A program made the translations under genes and the position numbers. A DNA stretch of 46,120 nt, taken from Bacillus sp. ISL-37 (lineage in GTDB: Bacteria; Bacillota; Bacilli; Bacillales; Cytobacillaceae). Positions 1,064 through 41,206 of this stretch are shown in pieces; the first letter of the stretch is position 1; every line of letters begins with the position of its first letter. Location: assembly GCF_018613315.1 (NCBI RefSeq), contig NZ_JAGGQL010000043.1:1-46120 (forward strand), written 5' to 3'. A model generated the notes under the pieces. It saw only the letters and a list, made by a program, of their open reading frames with translations, was not told where the DNA came from and did not search any database.

Positions 1064-1765
1064 ATGAAGGTATTATCGATTGATACGTCCAATTATGTTT
1101 TAGGTATTGGTCTTCTTGATGGTGAGACAGTTTTGGGCGAGTATATTTCCAATATAAAAAAGAATCATTCGGTACGCGTCATGCCGGCGATCCAGACATT
1201 GATGGAAGAGTGCAATATAAAACCAGGTGATCTATCGAAGATTGTCGTGGCTGAAGGGCCTGGATCATACACTGGTGTCCGGATCGGAGTGACAATCGCG
1301 AAAACAATGGCCTGGACATTGAAAATCCCGTTATCAGGCGTATCGAGCCTTGAGGTTGCAGCAGCATCGTCTGGCCGCTATTTTGACGGATATGTTTCTC
1401 CTTTTTTTGATGCGAGGAGAGGACAGATTTATACAGGTTTGTATAAGTTCGAGAATCAAAATTTGCAGATAGTAAAAGATGATCAGCTTGTTATGTCAGC
1501 TGATTGGGTAAAAACATTGAATGAAATGGACAGCAGGATTCTGTTTACGAGCAATGATTTGAAACTCCATAAAGATGTCATTAAGGAAGAGCTTGGAGAC
1601 AAAGCAGTTTTTGCAGCTGTCACTGAACAGAATCCTAGACCTGCAGAGCTTGCATTATTAGGGATGGATAAAGAGGCTGTTGACCTTCATACATTCGTTC
1701 CTAACTATATCCGCCTGGCAGAAGCAGAGGCCAATTGGCTAAAAGCGCAAGAGACTAAAAAATAA
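1064..1765 (+). CDS. tsaB: tRNA t6A37 threonylcarbamoyltransferase complex dimerization subunit TsaB
   Basis: TsaB is the non-catalytic ASKHA-fold partner that dimerises with TsaD in the t6A complex. The 233-residue protein shows the N-terminal phosphate-1-like strand (LSIDTSN) and the family motif GPGSYTGVRIG near residue 64, with the usual family length. The start ATG directly follows the tsaE stop codon without spacing, which indicates translational coupling. Rated confidently because motif, length and neighbours agree. Confidence 0.94.
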   Translation: MKVLSIDTSNYVLGIGLLDGETVLGEYISNIKKNHSVRVMPAIQTLMEECNIKPGDLSKIVVAEGPGSYTGVRIGVTIAKTMAWTLKIPLSGVSSLEVAAASSGRYFDGYVSPFFDARRGQIYTGLYKFENQNLQIVKDDQLVMSADWVKTLNEMDSRILFTSNDLKLHKDVIKEELGDKAVFAAVTEQNPRPAELALLGMDKEAVDLHTFVPNYIRLAEAEANWLKAQETKK

Positions 1766-1778
1766 GTGGGAAGAGAAG

Positions 1779-2228
1779 ATGAATAAAACGATAACGTTCC
1801 GGAATATGACGGTTGATGATCTGGATGAGGTGATGGAGGTTGAGGTTAATTCCTTTACCATTCCATGGAGCAGGGAAGCTTTTTTCAATGAATTGACGAA
1901 GAATCAGTTTGCTCAGTATCTGATTGTGGAAGTGGATCAAAAGGTAGTTGGTTACTGTGGAGTGTGGATCATCATTGATGAAGCACATATCACAAATATT
2001 GCCTTGCTTCCGGAATACAGGGGAATGAAGCTGGGTGAGGCGCTTATGGGCAAGGTAATGGAGCTGGCTCGTGAACTGGGCGCATTAAGGGTGACGCTCG
2101 AAGTCAGGGTCAGCAATGAAACGGCCCAAAACCTTTATCGCAAGTTTGGTTTCGAAGAAGGAGCTATTAGAAAACAATATTATACAGACAATATGGAAGA
2201 CGCTTTAGTAATGTGGGTGAATTTATAA
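1779..2228 (+). CDS. rimI: Ribosomal-protein-alanine N-acetyltransferase RimI
   Basis: A GNAT-fold acetyltransferase of 149 residues. In the family the enzyme acetylates the N-terminal alanine of ribosomal protein S18 using acetyl-CoA. The acetyl-CoA-binding segment [15 protein letters not shown] (about residues 72-86) carries the R-G-x-G/A pattern, and the C-terminal [15 protein letters not shown] block is typical of RimI. The start has a GGGAAGAG ribosome-binding site. The stop codon overlaps the tsaD start by one base, matching the ydiD-ydiE arrangement in B. subtilis. Confidence 0.9.
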
Positions 2229-3259
2229 TGACAAAAGATCAATTAATAATGGGAATAGAGACGAGCTGTGATGAAACGGCTATAGCGATTGTGAAAAATG
2301 GACGGGAAATCCTTGCGAATGTAGTCGCCTCTCAGATTGAAAGCCATAAGCGTTTCGGAGGGGTAGTACCGGAGATTGCGTCAAGGCACCATGTTGAACA
2401 GATCACGCTTGTGTTAGAGGAAGCATTAGCCCAGGCAAATGTGGATGTTAAGGATCTGGATGCTATTGTAGTTACAGAAGGACCAGGCTTGGTTGGCGCG
2501 TTATTGATTGGCGTTAACGCAGCCAAAGCATTGGCGTTTGCGAATGGTATTCCACTCATTGGTGTCCATCATATTGCCGGCCATATTTATGCGAACCGAC
2601 TAGTAACGGAGATGAACTTCCCGCTGCTTTCACTTGTCGTGTCCGGCGGGCATACTGAGCTCGTCTATATGAAGGAACACGGTCATTTCGAGGTGATTGG
2701 TGAGACACGGGATGACGCAGCAGGCGAAGCCTATGACAAGGTAGCAAGGACGTTGCACCTTCCATATCCGGGCGGTCCGCATATCGACAGGCTGGCTCAT
2801 GAAGGAAAGGCAACAATCGACCTGCCACGTGCATGGCTTGAGGAAGGCTCCTATGATTTCAGCTTCAGTGGGTTGAAGTCGGCTGTGATCAACGTTGTGC
2901 ATAACGCACAGCAGCGTGGAGAGGAAATCGTACCTGAAGAGCTTGCAGCTAGCTTCCAGGAGAGTGTTATTGATGTACTTGTCACAAAAACTCAAAGAGC
3001 TGTGAAAGAATACGGAGTAAAACAAGTACTGCTTGCTGGAGGAGTTGCGGCGAATAAAGGGTTGAGGGAGAAATTATCCACAGAGTTTGCAGATTCAGAT
3101 GTGGAAATTGTCATTCCTCCGTTGTCTTTATGCACAGACAATGCTGCCATGATTGCCGCGGCAGGCAGTGTTTTTTATGAAAAAGGCCAACGGGCCGATT
3201 TAACCTTGAATGGAAATCCTGGTCTGGAGATAACTATCCACAACGAAAGTCGTACGTAA
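2228..3259 (+). CDS. tsaD: tRNA N6-adenosine threonylcarbamoyltransferase TsaD (Gcp, YdiE)
   Basis: The catalytic ASKHA subunit that transfers the threonylcarbamoyl group to A37 of tRNA. The 343-residue protein begins with [12 protein letters not shown]. It carries the metal-binding HHIAGHIYA motif (two His ligands), the substrate-loop VSGGHTELV, and the C-terminal nucleotide/metal region [10 protein letters not shown] containing the third ligand Asp. The ATG at 2228 overlaps the rimI stop and is preferred over an in-frame GTG at 2213, because the family begins just before the IETSCDE motif. Confidence 0.95.
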
Positions 3260-3281
3260 AAAAATTGTTGTCAGACTCTTC

Positions 3282-3403
3282 TGTGGATATGTTGATGTAT
3301 TGAGAACAAAACTGTGTACAATGTGGATAAAACGAGCTGATTTTGTGGATAATGTGGAAAAGTCTCTGGATAAGCCATAAATCAGTCTTTACTATGTGAA
3401 TAA
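3282..3403 (-). promoter_or_regulatory. DnaA-box cluster between tsaD and ydiF
   Basis: On the minus strand this intergenic stretch contains two perfect TTATCCACA boxes (3322-3330 and 3344-3352, 22 bp apart), one TTATTCACA that still fits TTATNCACA (3395-3403), and one single-mismatch box (3282-3290). Further partial TGTGGA and TGGATAA words lie between them. All face the same way. DnaA-box clusters outside oriC are established in B. subtilis; I recall the gcp-ydiF interval as one of them, which would be this same position. Confidence 0.75.
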
Positions 3404-3414
3404 CTATGTGAACT

Positions 3415-3446
3415 AAAAGTCCCGGTTTTCAACTCGGGACTTTTTT
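3415..3446 (+). terminator. Terminator of the tsaE-tsaD operon
   Basis: An AAAAGTCCCG/CGGGACTTTT stem (3415-3424 with 3434-3443) with a 9-nt loop, followed by a run of T residues. It lies 155 nt after tsaD, beyond the DnaA boxes. Confidence 0.85.
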
Positions 3447-3544
3447 GTGGATTTTTCGCATACTTTAAAAGAGTTTTTTCTAAAAAACGACCCTTTTACA
3501 AGGGGAAAATTGATTATGAGACAACACTATCTGGCGCTGATCAC

Positions 3545-3660
3545 TTTTTATAGCGAAAATCCAAGTTTTATAGCGAAAAACTTAATTATATAGCGAAAAT
3601 CCAAGTTTTATAGCGAAAACAAAAATTATATAGCGAAAATCACATTTTTATAGCGAATTG
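3545..3660. repeat. Six-copy TATAGCGAA array with exact 20-bp period
   Basis: The 9-mer TATAGCGAA recurs at 3549, 3569, 3589, 3609, 3629 and 3649, exactly 20 bp apart. The bases between alternate in a way that also gives a 40-bp higher-order repeat (TTTTATAGCG and TTATATAGCG forms). The array contains no ORF and sits between the converging ends of tsaD and ydiF. Confidence 0.9.
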
Positions 3661-3744
3661 GAAATTCCAATCGTTTTTTACCAATGAGTTTTGTGAAATT
3701 TAGCATGGGCTCTATTAAAGAGTTTATGTACCATATATGAAAAT

Positions 3745-3776
3745 AAAAAACCGGGCAACTTCATGCCCGGTTTTCC
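3745..3776 (-). terminator. Terminator of ydiF
   Basis: The stem CCGGGCA/TGCCCGG (3752-3758 with 3765-3771) is followed on the minus strand by a U-rich run (complement of the A tract 3745-3751). It lies directly after the ydiF stop codon at 3782. Confidence 0.85.
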
Positions 3777-3781
3777 ACTCA

Positions 3782-5710
3782 CTAAGCCAGTTCTGTCCAC
3801 TCTTCCATCAGTTCGTCGAGTTTCTCTTTGGCGGCTTCGATTTTACTATTGATTTCTCCTGCTTTTTCATGATCCTGGAAGACTTCGGGATCACAAAGCA
3901 ATTCCTCGTATTCAGCTACTTCTAATTCCAGCTGTTCAATCTTCGTTTCAACTTCTTCCATGCGGCGTTTGCGCTGGCGTTCGAGTTTTTTCGCTTCTTT
4001 GTCCTGCTGGTAGGAGGTCTTGTCCTGCTTTGAGTTGTCCACAGCACTTCCTGAAGCTTTGGCGGCCTGCTCGGCCAGTGCCTTCAGCTCTTCCTGCTCA
4101 AGCTTTTTCTCGACGTAATAATCGTAATCGCCAAGGTATTCAGTTGAGCCACCACGGTCTAGCTCGAGGACCTTTGTGGCAATCCTGTTGATAAAATAAC
4201 GGTCATGTGAGACGAACAGGATGGTGCCTGGGTAATCAATCATGGCATTCTCGAGCACTTCCTTGCTATCCAGGTCGAGATGGTTTGTCGGCTCGTCCAA
4301 AATTAAGAAGTTAGAGTTTTGCAGCATAAGCTTGGCCAGTGCCAGACGAGCTTTTTCGCCGCCGCTTAAGGTGGAAACGATTTTTAGGACATCGTCACCT
4401 GAAAAAAGGAAATTCCCCAGCACGGTACGAATGTCTTTTTCCGATTTAAGAGGGTATTCATCCCAAAGTTCGTTCAAAACCTTTTTATTCGAGCTGAGCT
4501 CTGCCTGTTCCTGGTCATAATAGCCGATCGAAACATTTGAACCGTATTGAATATTTCCAGTTATTGAAGGCAGTTTTTCAACGATTGTTTTTAATAAAGT
4601 CGATTTTCCGACGCCATTTGGCCCAACGAGTGCTGTGCTGTCGCCACGCGAAAGGTTGAACGTGATATTTTCAGATACGACCTCATTCTGATAGCCGACA
4701 GCAAGCGTATGCACCTTGAGGACATCATTCCCGCTCTGGCGTTCAATTTGGAAGCTGAACGATGCGGATTTTTCATCACCCATAGGCCTGTCCATCCGGT
4801 CTATTTTTTCAAGTTGCTTCCGACGGCTCTGGGCACGTTTGGTTGTTGATGCCCTGGCCAGGTTCCGCTGGATAAAATCCTGCAGCTTGTTGATCTCATC
4901 CTGCTGCTTCTCAAACAGTTTCAGATCACGTTCGTAATTCGCGGCTTTCTGCTCTAAATACGAGCTGTAATTGCCAGGGAACTTCGTCAGCTGATGGCGG
5001 GAGATTTCGTATACCTGGTTCACGACCTTATCCAGGAAGTAACGGTCGTGTGAAACAATCAGGATGGCGCCGTCATAACCCTGTAAATACTGCTCAAGCC
5101 AGGATAGCGTATCGATGTCAAGGTGGTTCGTCGGTTCATCGAGAATCAAAATATCCGGCCGGGTCAATAATAGCTTCGCCAATGCGAGTCTAGTTTTCTG
5201 TCCCCCGCTTAAAGTGGATATTTTTGTGGAATAATCAAAAGAATGGAAGTTCAGGCCGTGAAGGACAGAACGGATATCGGCTTCATATTGGTAGCCGCCT
5301 TTTTCCTTGAACTGAACCTGAAGAAGGTCATACTCTTTCATGACTCTTTCGTATTCAGTCTCATTTGACAGAATGACAGGATCCGACATCTTTTCTTCCA
5401 GCCGGCGCAAGTCTTTTTCCATGCTGTGAAGATGGTTAAAAACGGCTAGCATTTCATCCCAGATGCTTTTCTCGGATTCCAGCCCAGTATTTTGGGCAAG
5501 ATAGCCAATCGTCGTTCCCTTAGGGCGGATGATCTCACCGCCGTCATGGGATTCGTACCCGGCAATGATTTTCAGCAGGGTTGATTTTCCCGCCCCATTC
5601 CGGCCGACAAGCGCTACTCGGTCATTGGTCTGTATTTCAAACTTTATATTCGATAAAATAAGATCAGCAGCAAAATATTTTGATAGCTGATTCACCTGTA
5701 ATAAAATCAT
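3782..5710 (-). CDS. ydiF: ABC-F family ATPase YdiF
   Basis: A 642-residue protein with two ABC ATPase domains and no membrane segments, the layout of ABC-F proteins, which act on the ribosome in translation. Domain 1 has Walker A GRNGAGKST near residue 37 and signature LSGGQKTR. Domain 2 has GPNGVGKST and LSGGEKAR; both have Walker B LILDEPTNHLD. The interdomain linker is basic and helical. The C-terminus (about residues 550-640) is a charged coiled coil starting KEAKKLERQRKRR. The start ATG follows an AGGTG Shine-Dalgarno. The gene is transcribed toward the tsaD operon and divergently from moaC, as in B. subtilis. Its exact ribosomal role is not deducible here. Confidence 0.93.
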   Translation of the reverse strand: MILLQVNQLSKYFAADLILSNIKFEIQTNDRVALVGRNGAGKSTLLKIIAGYESHDGGEIIRPKGTTIGYLAQNTGLESEKSIWDEMLAVFNHLHSMEKDLRRLEEKMSDPVILSNETEYERVMKEYDLLQVQFKEKGGYQYEADIRSVLHGLNFHSFDYSTKISTLSGGQKTRLALAKLLLTRPDILILDEPTNHLDIDTLSWLEQYLQGYDGAILIVSHDRYFLDKVVNQVYEISRHQLTKFPGNYSSYLEQKAANYERDLKLFEKQQDEINKLQDFIQRNLARASTTKRAQSRRKQLEKIDRMDRPMGDEKSASFSFQIERQSGNDVLKVHTLAVGYQNEVVSENITFNLSRGDSTALVGPNGVGKSTLLKTIVEKLPSITGNIQYGSNVSIGYYDQEQAELSSNKKVLNELWDEYPLKSEKDIRTVLGNFLFSGDDVLKIVSTLSGGEKARLALAKLMLQNSNFLILDEPTNHLDLDSKEVLENAMIDYPGTILFVSHDRYFINRIATKVLELDRGGSTEYLGDYDYYVEKKLEQEELKALAEQAAKASGSAVDNSKQDKTSYQQDKEAKKLERQRKRRMEEVETKIEQLELEVAEYEELLCDPEVFQDHEKAGEINSKIEAAKEKLDELMEEWTELA

Positions 5711-8747: not shown

Positions 8748-10388
<1,641 letters not shown>

Positions 10389-10479
10389 TAAGCTGATATT
10401 CTCCTTGATATCAAAGGGTTTATAAGCTTCCCTCCAATCTGTAGTGTCCGAAAAAGCAAGAAAAATAAATAAAAATTTT

Positions 10480-10527
10480 AAAGAGGTCCTTTATTAAGTC
10501 AGTGAACTTAATAAAGGACCTCTTTTT
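10480..10527 (+). terminator. groESL terminator
   Basis: A perfect 20-bp inverted repeat (10480-10499 with 10506-10525, CAGTGA loop) followed by Ts. It separates groEL from the retron. Confidence 0.93.
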
Positions 10528-10564
10528 AAATGTTTATTCTTAACTGACTTTTGTTTCATATAAA

Positions 10565-10593
10565 TGTTCAAATTTTTTTAAAAAGTGTATAAT
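10565..10593 (+). promoter_or_regulatory. Retron promoter
   Basis: A consensus -10 TATAAT at 10588-10593 lies 7 bp before the first base of the retron RNA stem, exactly the spacing needed to start transcription at a1. A weak -35-like TGTTCA (10565-10570) lies 17 bp upstream of the -10. Confidence 0.65.
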
Positions 10594-10599
10594 TTTATT

Positions 10600-10744
10600 A
10601 ACGTGTGGCTAGATTTTTTCGCTTGTGTTTCGCAAGTGTTTACAATAATGGTGGGAACATTCGCTTCTCCGATTCTAATTATCTGCATGGTGGTATATGT
10701 CACTGTTGGCACCACGCGGTTCGCCTAATGAGTAGCCACACGTT
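10600..10744 (+). ncRNA. Retron msr-msd non-coding RNA
   Basis: The ends form the diagnostic a1/a2 stem: AACGTGTGGCTA (10600-10611) is the exact reverse complement of TAGCCACACGTT (10733-10744). Next to a1 is G10612, a candidate branching guanosine. The msr part has an 8-bp stem-loop with a UUU loop (10620-10627 with 10631-10638, two G-U pairs) and a smaller stem (10653-10657 with 10665-10670, one bulge). The msd part has a 10-position stem with one A-C mismatch and a G-U pair (10683-10692 with 10710-10719) and a 17-nt loop. The reverse transcriptase gene begins 21 nt after a2. The msDNA ends are inferred, not determined; the msd would be roughly 60 nt. Confidence 0.88.
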
Positions 10745-10764
10745 TATTTTTGAAGGAGTTTTAT

Positions 10765-12522
10765 ATGATGGAATTTCACGATATAAAAACACGAAATGAT
10801 CTTGCTGATTCTCTGGAAATTCCCAGAAAAAAACTTAGTTATCTATTATATAAAAATGACATTAATACTTTCTACACTTCGTTTGAAATAGATAAAAAAA
10901 AATGGTGGCGTTCGAAAAATTAATGCTCCATCAGCAGAACTCAAAGACATTCAAAGAAAACTTGCAGTGGCATTGTATAATAATAGAAAAAAAAACAGGA
11001 AATAAAAAATATTCTCTCTCATGCATTCGAAAAAGAAAAGAGCATTATAACCAATGCAAAAATTCATCGGAATAAAAGGTTGGTTTTGAATATCGATTTA
11101 GAAAGCTTTTTTGAAAGTTTTCATTTTGGTCGTGTCAGAGGTTTTTTTATTAAGAATTATAATTTCTTATTAACTAGTGAAGTAGCCACAGTTATTGCAC
11201 AATTAACATGTTACAAAGGAACCCTGCCGCAAGGAGCGCCAACTTCTCCAATCATTACAAACCTAATTTGTGAGATACTTGACCAAAGAGTATTGAAAAT
11301 CGCAAAAAAATATAAGTTAGATTATACACGTTATGCGGATGATTTGACATTTTCTACAAATGATAAGGGATTTTTAGACCTACAGGCGGAATTTTATGAA
11401 TTATTATCAAGTGAATTAACACGAGCAGGGTTCAAAATTAATGAAAAGAAGAAAAGGTTACAACTTAGGGATTCAAGACAGGTGGTAACTGGACTTGTTG
11501 TTAATAAGAAGATTAACGTGAATAAAATCTTTTATAAAGAGACTAGGGCAATGGCTCATCAACTTTATAAAGAAGGAAAGTTTGAGATTAATGGTAAACT
11601 CGCAAACCTTAATCAATTAGAAGGAAGATTTGCCTTTATAAATCAATTAACTAAGTACAATAACAAAATAGATGGTAATAAGCATAATTTTAATAACTTG
11701 AGTTCAAGAGAACTCCAATATCAAAAGTTTCTTTTTTATAAATACTTTTATGCGAACCCAAAGCCAATAATTGTGACGGAAGGTAAAACAGATATTGCTT
11801 ATTTAAAAGCAGCTTTAAAAAATCTCTATAACGAATATCCTAATTTAATTACAAAAAATAGTGATGGATCATTTGAGTTTAAAGTATCTTTTCTAAATAA
11901 AACTAAGAGATTAGCATACTTACTGGGCATTTTCCAGGATGGGGGGAGTGCACTAAATAATATATACAATTTCTTTGATGCTAAGACCAAGAAATCCACT
12001 CTTAGTTATTTAAGTTATTTTAAGAAGATAAGCAACACTTTACCTAAAAACCCTGTTATTTTATTGTTCGATAATGAGATTAAGAGTGGGAAAAATAAAC
12101 CTATAGGTAATTTTATTAATTATGCAAAGCTTGATGATAAGAAAAAGGGTATCTTAAGGGATAAATGCATGGTCAATATTATTGACAATTTATACCTTTT
12201 GACTGTACCGTTATTAGATGGGAAGCCCGAATGTGATATAGAGGACTTATTTGATAAATATACTCTGTCGCAAATAATTGGAGGAAGAGAATTTTGCAAA
12301 AAGGACAAGTATGATCACTCGAAGTACTATGGTAAAGAAATTTTCTCTAAGTATATTTTAGGTAATTACACTGAAATAAATTTTAATCAATTTAGATCCG
12401 TCTTAAATAACATAAATAATGTAATAGAATTATACACAAAGGGGCTTGTTGATACGCCGGGGAATCTTGAAGCAAAAAATATAGATAAGATTAGCGTGGA
12501 AAAGGTTCCTTTAGAAGTCTAA
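10765..12522 (+). CDS. Retron reverse transcriptase-TOPRIM fusion (Ec67/Eco2-like), split by two frameshifts in A-tracts
   Basis: The reverse transcriptase makes msDNA from the adjacent RNA; the C-terminal TOPRIM domain is the likely effector nuclease. From ATG 10765 (GAAGGAG site) frame 1 is read to the 9-A tract 10894-10902. The next frame encodes the RT segment NGGVRKINAPSAELKDIQRKL up to the 9-A tract 10987-10995, after which frame 1 resumes to the stop. Joined, this gives about 585 residues, close to the 586 I recall for Ec67 RT. RT marks are NAKIH (retron region X, NAxxH), LNIDLESFF, the catalytic YADD (11332-11343) and VVTGLVVN (region Y, VTG). TOPRIM marks are IIVTEGKTD, ILLFDNE and CDIEDLFD. 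A TTG at 11080 would give 480 residues lacking RT regions 0-2 and is an unlikely real start. Base use is much more A/T-rich than the neighbours. Family call firm; activity uncertain. Confidence 0.87.
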
Positions 12523-12523
12523 T

Positions 12524-12546
12524 AGTAGTGAAGGTTTATCACTACT
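12524..12546 (+). terminator. Hairpin after the retron
   Basis: An 8-bp perfect inverted repeat AGTAGTGA/TCACTACT (12524-12531 with 12539-12546) begins directly after the RT-TOPRIM stop codon. No T run follows, so termination by it is only possible. Confidence 0.5.
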
Positions 12547-12737
12547 CAAAAACATAGATCCAATTTGTGAAATTAGAAATTTAATCAGCATACAAACGGG
12601 CTTCACTATTGTGAGGTTCTTTTTTTCTTTTCTTAGGTAACTAACGGGCAGTCCTGTAAAAACTGAATTTTATTGACAAACACCTCAAAGTTTTATTTTT
12701 CGATAAATACAAGGTTGAGTAGAATGGGGAAATTCAT

Positions 12738-13787
12738 TTGAGCCAAAAACGAAAGAAGAATTCTATTGATAGAGCTACAAGGTTAATTGTTACTCTTACT
12801 ATTGCTAGTGGTGTGGCCATTTTAGTTAAAATGGCGTTTAGTGCATGGTTTCAAACATTTTCAACAAATGCATATACAAAAAACTTCATAAATTTTGATT
12901 ATATTTTTTCAATTTTATTTGTTACTGTTACTATTCTATGTGCCTTTTCCATTGGAAGATATTTGTTTTTTGAATTAATGACTTTTAACTACTATGAAAA
13001 TAGTAGTGAACAAGAATTTGCATACGAGGCTTCAGATAATGCTTATAGAAGTATATTTAAGACAATAAAAATGTGTATTAATGTAGTTTTTTTAATAATG
13101 ATTGTTACAGCTCTTATTAATGTATTTGAAAATAAGGATTCTTGGAAATACATTTTAATAGGTGCATCAATAAGTAGTATGTCGATTCTAAGTCTTTTCT
13201 TTATTAATAAGAAAAAATTAAAGAAGGTCATAAAGTTTACAGAAAAAGTTGAAACAAAAATTAATATTTATCTCCAATTTGTATATGTAGCTTTTTTAAT
13301 GTTCTTTGTAGGAATAACAATTACCTTACTTTCATTAAATTCTAATCATACAGCAAGTATTTTAATCGGAGATTCCAAAAATGTTCCACTAAAGATTGAA
13401 TTACAGAATAAAACAAATTCCAAAATTTATATAAAAATTAAAAATCCTGAAAAGGAATTTTTTGTTGACGATTCTGATGTGAAAACTTCAGAAAGTTACG
13501 TTGAGGTTTTAGAAAAGAATGATGAACTAAACTCTTCAAATGAAATTGATCACTTTGTTAAAAATCTAAGCAAAGAAAATGATAAGATGAATATCCCAAA
13601 AACCGAATATACTAAGATATATAGTGCAGATTTAGGAGACTACCTTGTATCGGGGGAAAATTATGTTGAGATTACTATTGTGTCAACTGTCTCCAATAAT
13701 ACTAAAGCTATCCACTTCTTAACTACAGTTACAAAAGAGGGAGATACTATAGAGGTAACCAAGAAAAAGATGAATCTGAAACTATAA
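12738..13787 (+). CDS. Unrecognised five-helix membrane protein next to the retron
   Basis: I do not recognise this 349-residue protein. It starts at TTG 12738 behind GGGGA. Hydrophobic segments lie near residues 15-37, 49-72, 108-128, 135-155 and 178-203. A soluble C-terminal part of about 145 residues follows, rich in Lys, Asn, Ser and Glu and likely beta-stranded (KIELQNKTNSKIYIKIKNP). The N-terminus is basic (SQKRKKNSIDR). Base composition is as A/T-rich as the retron's and unlike the flanking core genes, so it probably arrived with the same island. It is 215 nt downstream of the RT gene with its own ribosome site. It may be a retron accessory, another defence component or an unrelated passenger. 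Confidence 0.6.
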   Translation: MSQKRKKNSIDRATRLIVTLTIASGVAILVKMAFSAWFQTFSTNAYTKNFINFDYIFSILFVTVTILCAFSIGRYLFFELMTFNYYENSSEQEFAYEASDNAYRSIFKTIKMCINVVFLIMIVTALINVFENKDSWKYILIGASISSMSILSLFFINKKKLKKVIKFTEKVETKINIYLQFVYVAFLMFFVGITITLLSLNSNHTASILIGDSKNVPLKIELQNKTNSKIYIKIKNPEKEFFVDDSDVKTSESYVEVLEKNDELNSSNEIDHFVKNLSKENDKMNIPKTEYTKIYSADLGDYLVSGENYVEITIVSTVSNNTKAIHFLTTVTKEGDTIEVTKKKMNLKL

Positions 13788-13804
13788 AAAATTTTAACGG
13801 ACAA

Positions 13805-14231
13805 CTTATCATCATCCTGAAATCATCCACCGCCTCGGGTTGATCTCAATTAATCCAGCCTTGGAGGTGATTTTGCCAGAAATACACGATTGGCCATCTT
13901 CGTCACCAAATCGATTGCCAAAGGTGGAAAGATTTCGAGCATCGTACCTTTCGTCTCTCATGTAGACCACACCGAGCATGATGTCGACGTGATTGTCACT
14001 GAACAGGGATATCCAGACTTGAGAGGCCTTGCTCCAAGGGAAAGAGTGGAACTGATTATTGAAAACTGCGCGCACCCAATGTACCGCGGCCAGCTGCGTG
14101 CCTATTATCAGAAGGCACTGCAAAGAGGCGGACAAACGCCGCATGTTTTGGAAAAAGCTCTATCATGGCATACCAATTTTGCCAGCAAGGGTACTATGCA
14201 TGAAGAGACAACAGAAACCGTTCAGGTATAA
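13805..14231 (+). pseudogene. Remnant of acetyl-CoA hydrolase/CoA-transferase family gene
   Basis: Only the 3' part of a gene of the acetyl-CoA hydrolase/succinyl-CoA:acetate CoA-transferase family remains. Frame 1 encodes HPEIIHRLGLISINPALEV (13813-13869). The frame then changes and continues DFARNTRLAIFVTKSIAKGG, then SIVPFVSHVDHTEHDVDVIV and TEQGYPDLRGLAPRERVELI to the stop at 14229-14231. The family normally has about 25 residues between ALEVD and GDFARN; these are missing. GGTGAT at the junction could have served both ends, as in a deletion between short repeats. The first two thirds of the gene and any start are absent. It abuts the retron island, so insertion of the island probably broke the gene. 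Confidence 0.85.
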
Positions 14232-39133: not shown

Positions 39134-39181
39134 CCGCTAAAATATTATACTGATACAATGTTTGCAACTATATAGAATCAA

Positions 39182-39252
39182 CCTTCATATATCCTCGATA
39201 ATATGGTTCGAAAGTATCTACCAAATCACCGGAAATGATTTGACTATGAAGG
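39182..39252 (+). promoter_or_regulatory. Guanine-sensing purine riboswitch (guaA leader)
   Basis: The P1 stem CCTTCATA/TATGAAGG encloses the two hairpin loops of the purine aptamer, including GGTTCGAAAG-ATCTACC and the CGGAAATG loop. The base before the 3' P1 strand is C (39244), the guanine/hypoxanthine specificity position. With ligand bound, P1 would be stable and the terminator downstream would form. Confidence 0.92.
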
Positions 39253-39276
39253 CAGGTTTCTTTTTGTACGTAACGG

Positions 39277-41011: not shown

Positions 41012-41070
41012 ATTGACTAGGGGCAAAAGTCCTGTTAAAATAAATTTGAACTTAATAATTTGTCATAATT

Positions 41071-41139
41071 CGTCGTATAATCTTGGGGATATGGCCCAAA
41101 AGTTTCTACCGAGCTACCGTAAATGGCTTGACTACGAGG
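41071..41139 (+). promoter_or_regulatory. Guanine-sensing purine riboswitch (pbuG leader)
   Basis: The classic aptamer with P1 near TCGTA/TACGA (41073-41077 with 41133-41137), GGGGATATGGCCC on the first hairpin, TTTCTACCGAGC across J2/3, and the GTAAATGGC loop. C41132 is the guanine/hypoxanthine specificity base. It controls the pbuG permease. Confidence 0.94.
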
Positions 41140-41206
41140 TATAGAATTCATGGCTGGCAATCTATCAATCTATTGCAGCCAGGAGTTTCTTTTATTGCCT
41201 GCAGTC

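Follow-up and report, generated by a model that had tools for sequence, protein, structure and literature searches.

The closest described system is the retron Eco2 (Ec67, type I-C) of E. coli, in which a reverse transcriptase (RT) is fused to a C-terminal TOPRIM domain (chains 9i2f and 9lm3). According to its description (PMC12405507), Eco2 is known to act in phage defence, and RNase activity is known for its TOPRIM domain. The Eco2 DNA is joined to rG15 of the RNA and ends with a base opposite rG52, which is directly preceded by rA49, rA50 and rU51. The same text reports that the exchange of R332 for alanine abolished defence, and that the loop carrying this residue is by itself insufficient for trimer formation. 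The window analysed here, a stretch of 46,120 nucleotides from Bacillus sp. ISL-37 (contig NZ_JAGGQL010000043.1), contains at positions 10599-12522 a retron which, judged by its sequence, is real and belongs to the Ec67/Eco2 (type I-C) RT-TOPRIM family. It very probably belongs to a Bacillota branch of this family and was acquired as cargo at an integration spot behind groEL. The retron is a sound representative of a known family, present here as an interrupted copy, and not a new kind of system; with it, the RT-TOPRIM retrons gain a well-delimited chromosomal member from the Bacillales.

Between positions 10588 and 12522, the window contains, in this order, a -10 box, a structured RNA, a ribosome-binding site and a gene that comprises 585 codons and a stop codon; the retron features described in the following lie on the forward (+) strand unless stated otherwise. 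The coding region (10765-12522, 1758 bases) starts with an ATG at 10765 and its stop codon ends at 12522, which agrees with the reassembled length of about 585 residues given in an initial annotation of the DNA. The start codon and the N-terminus are found in a first piece (10765-10920), which matches positions 1-45 of the PADLOC profile RT-Toprim_I-C (E 1.1e-12), a second piece in a second frame (10892-11002) matches profile positions 43-76 (E 3.7e-9), and a third piece (10987-12522), which is again in the first frame, encodes the RT core and the TOPRIM domain and is the longest with 511 open codons. The frame changes lie inside two runs of nine A residues (A9), located at 10894-10902 between pieces one and two and at 10987-10995 between pieces two and three, and these are the only A9 runs of the RT-TOPRIM gene. 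Since the three pieces match RT-Toprim_I-C profiles in succession, they form one interrupted gene and not a chance row of frames. A full retron cassette had been claimed for this locus; the RNA, the RT and the TOPRIM parts are indeed present, but the protein is not encoded in one open frame and has to be joined from three pieces at the two A9 runs. The window copy lacks an uninterrupted frame, a property that bears on activity and not on descent. Because of these two breaks at A9 runs, the window copy as written should not make a full-length protein, unless slippage or assembly errors come into play, and does not demonstrate a working system. The broken frame is a warning against calling defence systems active on profile matches alone.

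The profile search proposed in the initial annotation confirmed the Ec67/Eco2-like identity. The third piece, searched as 11080-12519, matched RT-Toprim_I-C from profile position 107 or 108 on (E 5.6e-208, best of 43 PADLOC families), reached 526.3 bits against the NCBIfam model NF038237 (retron Ec67 family RNA-directed DNA polymerase/endonuclease; cut-off 450) and aligned with the solved Ec67 chains over both the RT and the TOPRIM part (E 2.6e-88 for 9i2f); the RNA tests described below agree with these results. The motifs NAKIH, YADD and VVTG of the RT as well as VTEGKTD, LLFDNE and CDIEDLFD of the TOPRIM domain, all of which had been read from the DNA before, are present; the RT motifs are aligned with those of relatives, and NAxxH, YADD and VTG are common to the window protein and Eco2. 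PADLOC also lists RT-TIR_XII (E 2.9e-65) and RT-Protease_XI (E 2.4e-63), which would be the starting point for regarding the protein as another defence RT, namely a TIR retron of type XII, a protease retron of type XI or a DRT. Both matches lie far below the best one, the model NF042941 reached only 190.8 bits with a cut-off of 600, and the TOPRIM half aligns to Ec67; such an identity is contradicted by the PADLOC, NCBIfam and Ec67 chain matches and has practically no probability. Among the Pfam families, RVT_1 alone was reported on the RT-TOPRIM pieces and TOPRIM was not, and the gene contains the only RVT_1 match in the whole genome at E up to 0.001. A fold prediction for part of the third piece together with two relatives yielded a mean pLDDT of 33.6, which is too poor for use. 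At the level of the letters themselves, the Ec67/Eco2 family membership is directly supported in the window, as are the RNA structure, by covariation, and the kept catalytic residues.

The msr-msd non-coding RNA of the retron is located at 10599-10745. It was detected by the covariance model R1, which is built from nine relatives outside the Bacillaceae, with 89.9 bits (E 1.3e-14 over 366 kb), and it is the sole match of this model in the whole genome at E up to 1. The a1 arm (10600-10611) and the a2 arm (10733-10744) form the perfect 12-bp terminal inverted repeat that had been noticed at the outset, and their pairing is supported by covariation in related loci. The msr stem-loop (10620-10638) consists of eight pairs, six of which show pair-keeping changes on both sides. 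The promoter that had been assumed upstream of the RNA is represented by the -10 element TATAAT at 10588-10593, which was recognised by sequence reading and is found, by an eye count, at the corresponding place in nine of 11 Bacillota-type upstream regions (absent from L008 and L012); its -35 box is weak, and the retron promoter is missing from the output of a promoter consensus scan. A ribosome-binding site was read at 10752-10758, and a computed scan placed a terminator-like hairpin with a T-tail at 12598-12619, 3' of the RT-TOPRIM gene.

The folding energy of the RNA strand is -44.4 kcal/mol compared to a shuffled mean of -35.8 (z -2.2), and seven of 200 shuffles are as good; taken alone, this would be weak evidence for a retron RNA. 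RNAalifold predicted 24 pairs for 11 RNAs of the Bacillota clade, ten of them with changes on both sides. When three proteobacterial RNAs were added, the two named helices comprised 20 pairs, 14 of which show changes on both sides versus a shuffle mean of 5.5, with the outermost pair of each helix failing in four of the 14 sequences. In this set, 97.1% of 278 cells are paired, compared to 83.1% in shuffles and at most 53.2% in a slid alignment, a control that is biased in favour of the structure because the structure was derived from these very sequences. There is only a slight excess of further pair types (26 versus 21.3 in shuffles, with eight of 500 shuffles reaching 26). The RNA alignments covered one of two loci with the same RNA (L008, with L040 left out), and L013, L061, L062 and L063-L067 lie outside the RNA comparison. 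While supported by covariation, the RNA is unmatched in Rfam: the five gathering-level matches in the window (5S rRNA, two tRNAs and two purine riboswitches) are all located elsewhere, and of the 20 matches that a search of 10400-10900 gave at E up to 10, not one overlaps 10599-10745.

Like the RNA of Eco2, that of the window has an a1/a2 repeat, a single msr stem-loop and a G that faces the expected end of the DNA. By alignment with Eco2 (PMC12405507), G10612, which is invariant in all 14 aligned RNAs, is the predicted branching guanosine and counterpart of rG15, and the reverse-transcribed part (msd) is predicted at 10650-10731 on the minus strand. The window RNA carries the letters AATGG, whose first G is position 10650, and a conserved GAGT with its A at 10731. 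The DNA product would accordingly comprise about 82 nt, compared to 67 nt in Eco2, with its first base opposite A10731 and its last base opposite G10650, the presumable counterpart of rG52. From Eco2, we infer branching, the DNA ends, silencing, RNase activity and a phage trigger for the window retron. In an intact member of the family, the RNA would be transcribed ahead of the gene and its a1 and a2 arms would pair; the RT would then prime DNA synthesis at the internal guanosine (G10612 in the window) and copy about 82 nt. The RNA-DNA hybrid is proposed to remain bound to the fused protein, thereby keeping the nuclease of the TOPRIM domain silent. If phage infection damaged or altered this hybrid, the nuclease would be set free and could then cut RNA, and phage growth would stop.

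Counterparts of the Eco2 residues E374, D378, D460, E515 and K562 are found in the TOPRIM domain of the window protein, whose catalytic set (TEGKTD, D-N-E, IED and GK) is present with its acids, glycine and lysine kept. In contrast, Eco2 D462 corresponds to E in the window, and the position of S513 is occupied by D. The second acid of the D-x-D motif is E in all 12 rows of the Bacillota clade that contain the site, annotated family members among them, and D in all eight proteobacterial rows; L062, which has no single open frame of sufficient length, and L067, which ends before the TOPRIM domain, were dropped from this count and from the tree, and L012 is without the last part of the TOPRIM domain. 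As the 12 rows form one branch of the tree, D-x-E possibly goes back to one single change. It may be a new lineage feature of the Bacillota clade; a literature search on D-x-E in the TOPRIM domains of retrons found no paper. For the family, this raises the question of whether D-x-E works in place of D-x-D.

A second difference concerns the loop that provides the trimer contact D331-R332-Y333 in Eco2. In the alignment, the loop of the window protein is about 13-14 residues shorter, has a length of 20 residues and lacks the DRY motif. Among 17 rows, loops of 20-21 residues are found in nine of the 12 clade rows. A short loop was considered as a mark of the Bacillota clade, and this idea was dropped, as the loop is 30 residues long in S. 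aureus and S. carnosus and 37 in L. plantarum, and as two of the five proteobacterial rows, Proteus (L039) and Providencia, also have 20. Since the latter two have the short form too, the Eco2-type loop does not define the family, and it can be asked whether the Eco2 trimer is general where the contact loop is absent. In the Enterococcus row L007, the loop reads DFR, which is not the contact motif, and a DRY-like flag falls on an ERY near the start of the stretch. It is highly unlikely that these differences add up to a functionally shifted Bacillota branch of RT-TOPRIM proteins, with a D-x-E metal site, mostly no Eco2-type trimer loop and, in the window strain, a toxic fusion whose expression is limited by slippage at the two A9 runs.

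A Bacillaceae host had been regarded as unusual for an RT-TOPRIM retron. A Firmicutes host is, however, no surprise, because Ec67-family retrons are already annotated in Enterococcus, Staphylococcus and Lactiplantibacillus. A search of plasmids revealed matches in 28 of 72,556 records, 16 of which extend over 80% or more of the query, including six from Staphylococcus and three from Enterococcus; matches in the three genera named above are annotated as Ec67-family retron, and a Listeria record matches without such an annotation. These annotated retrons share the NCBI product name and the D-N-E of the TOPRIM domain with the window retron, and those of Enterococcus and Staphylococcus also its RNA layout; unlike the window retron, they are plasmid-borne, and they are 42 to 60% identical to it, with a shortened TOPRIM domain in S. 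carnosus. On the S. carnosus plasmid (L012, 2677-4435), the annotated RT-TOPRIM frame ends early and is overlapped there by the next annotated frame; the long frame is without the C-terminal TOPRIM part, and four S. carnosus plasmid records show the same 73% match. Only one of 50,697 phage records matches, and a scan of viral_contigs gave no relative (20 stretches matched the pattern, none of which was confirmed).

Closer relatives are found in Bacillales genomes. The scan of species genomes identified two loci, in Sporosarcina sp. E16_8 (L002) and Cytobacillus purgationiresistens (L003), and whole-genome searches identified relatives in G050 (L014; same protein as that of C. purgationiresistens), G066 and G409. 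These four distinct Bacillales relatives are 74-79% identical to the window protein over the shared part and have an RNA nearly identical to that of the window; two of the four lie near groEL. In a tree of 20 rows, they group with the window protein (100/100) within a clade of 12 (100/99), which comprises, besides 11 Bacillota rows, an unverified phage record derived from human faeces. At strict cut-offs, with the own genome included and overlapping samples, such retrons were counted in three of 193 genomes of the family (E 1e-60), two of 397 of the order (E 1e-60) and one of 398 of the phylum (E 1e-40).

In each of the four Bacillales relatives the retron protein is encoded by one open frame, and, like Eco2, they differ in this respect from the window gene with its two breaks. 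The breaks may be real and recent, so that the window strain carries a decaying retron copy, a reading that comes close to an even chance. In six relatives, the A-runs at these places are at most eight residues long and mostly interrupted. Furthermore, the surrounding insert of about 3.4 kb has no match to the recombinases of the groEL site and adjoins a truncated acetyl-CoA hydrolase gene. The ratio of amino-acid to silent changes, which is 24:26 for the window branch and 39:60 for that of G409 (L006), points in the same direction, but the difference is not significant (Fisher p 0.38), and 511 codons without a further break speak against decay. It is also quite possible that the breaks are assembly or sequencing errors at the A9 runs and that the retron of the strain is intact and working. 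The genome is available as a 62-contig draft, both breaks sit in the sole two A9 runs of the gene, and the remaining gene is open over 511 codons, under purifying selection (dN/dS by NG86 of about 0.11, 0.19 and 0.18 versus L006, L003 and L005 over 494-496 codons) and accompanied by a well-kept RNA. On the other hand, 426 kb of the genome, window included, contain 58 A or T runs of eight or nine, of which 15 lie inside long open frames, two of them as A9. Runs of nine letters form a tiny sample; the nine in the 426 kb are distributed over the RT-TOPRIM gene (two), intact frames elsewhere (two) and regions outside long frames (five). A break test over the same 426 kb flagged three other candidates, one of which (L054) is antisense to an intact frame of 290 codons; the test is insensitive to breaks of the kind seen in the RT-TOPRIM gene, because these two went unflagged. 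The case that this survey makes against a general homopolymer problem is only a mild one.

Slippage is an established phenomenon in bacteria at runs of nine or more A residues. The A9 runs could act as a switch, in which slippage of RNA polymerase or the ribosome at both runs yields little full-length RT-TOPRIM protein and keeps the level of a toxic protein low. Both A9 runs coincide with the frame changes of a gene that is otherwise under selection; however, the four Bacillales relatives manage with a single open frame, no A9 run is found at these places in the rows compared, and two serial slips would be inefficient, which makes such a switch unlikely. A literature search on retrons and transcriptional slippage found nothing relevant. 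Mutational decay and assembly error are the two readings with substantial probability, decay being slightly ahead.

The initial annotation had placed the retron in a core locus, whereas the comparison of loci revealed that the region following groEL has repeatedly served as an integration spot and is not a stable core position. The groEL gene of the window ends at 10388, and the retron RNA starts 211 bp after groEL, while the distance in G050 and G409 is 4.1 and 3.4 kb, respectively; thus, the retron lies within 4.2 kb of groEL in three of five Bacillales loci, window included, which ties RT-TOPRIM retrons to this integration spot. The groEL end is absent from the 15-kb stretch of G066, nor was one noticed in the frames of the short stretch from Sporosarcina. 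In G050 (Cytobacillus purgationiresistens, L014), genes located between groEL and the retron (1631-4615) read as tyrosine recombinases, one of them apparently split in two frames, and a 92% identical relative of the G050 recombinase follows groEL in G085 (L023). Among 20 loci of the genus behind groEL, own locus included, a full relative of the G050 integrase is present in one (L023) and partial matches in three (L030, L024 and L021); the window shows no match to a G050-type integrase after groEL. In Sporosarcina (L002), a frame at 1642-3372 upstream of the retron reads like the coupling ATPase of a conjugation system; this would be consistent with a retron carried by an integrative conjugative element.

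In the sister genomes G076 and G082, groEL is followed by an acetyl-CoA hydrolase frame of 511 codons and a hyp operon, and G075 aligns likewise; G072 has the hyp operon in common with the window, but its alignment starts only from 14259 on. At the right edge of the insert (13810-14231), the window retains a truncated acetyl-CoA hydrolase gene, in which residues 348-367 and 391-511 (13810-14228) are all that is found of the frame in G076; therefore, about 3.4 kb of other DNA seem to replace the front of this gene. The insert consists of two modules. One is the retron, which aligns to G066 over 10580-12667; the other is a membrane-protein-like gene, which aligns to G024 over 12692-13792. The latter (12738-13787) encodes a protein of 349 residues for which Pfam, NCBIfam and PADLOC gave no match at E up to 0.01, and the G024 protein is 73% identical to it. 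As no retron match was found in the 14-kb stretch of G024, the gene is probably a separate cargo module. Repeats of the groEL end were considered as attachment sites; the window contains one 12-mer at a distance of 34.6 kb and G409 one 13-mer, both of which were taken as chance, and none was found in G050, L030 or L018. Between groEL and the retron, a very strong hairpin of 20 pairs is located at 10480-10525 (listed on the minus strand), where weak Rfam matches cluster; it is perhaps the groESL terminator. Further downstream in the window, the two purine riboswitches (39165-39266 and 41053-41154) are separated by about 1.9 kb, and each precedes an open frame.
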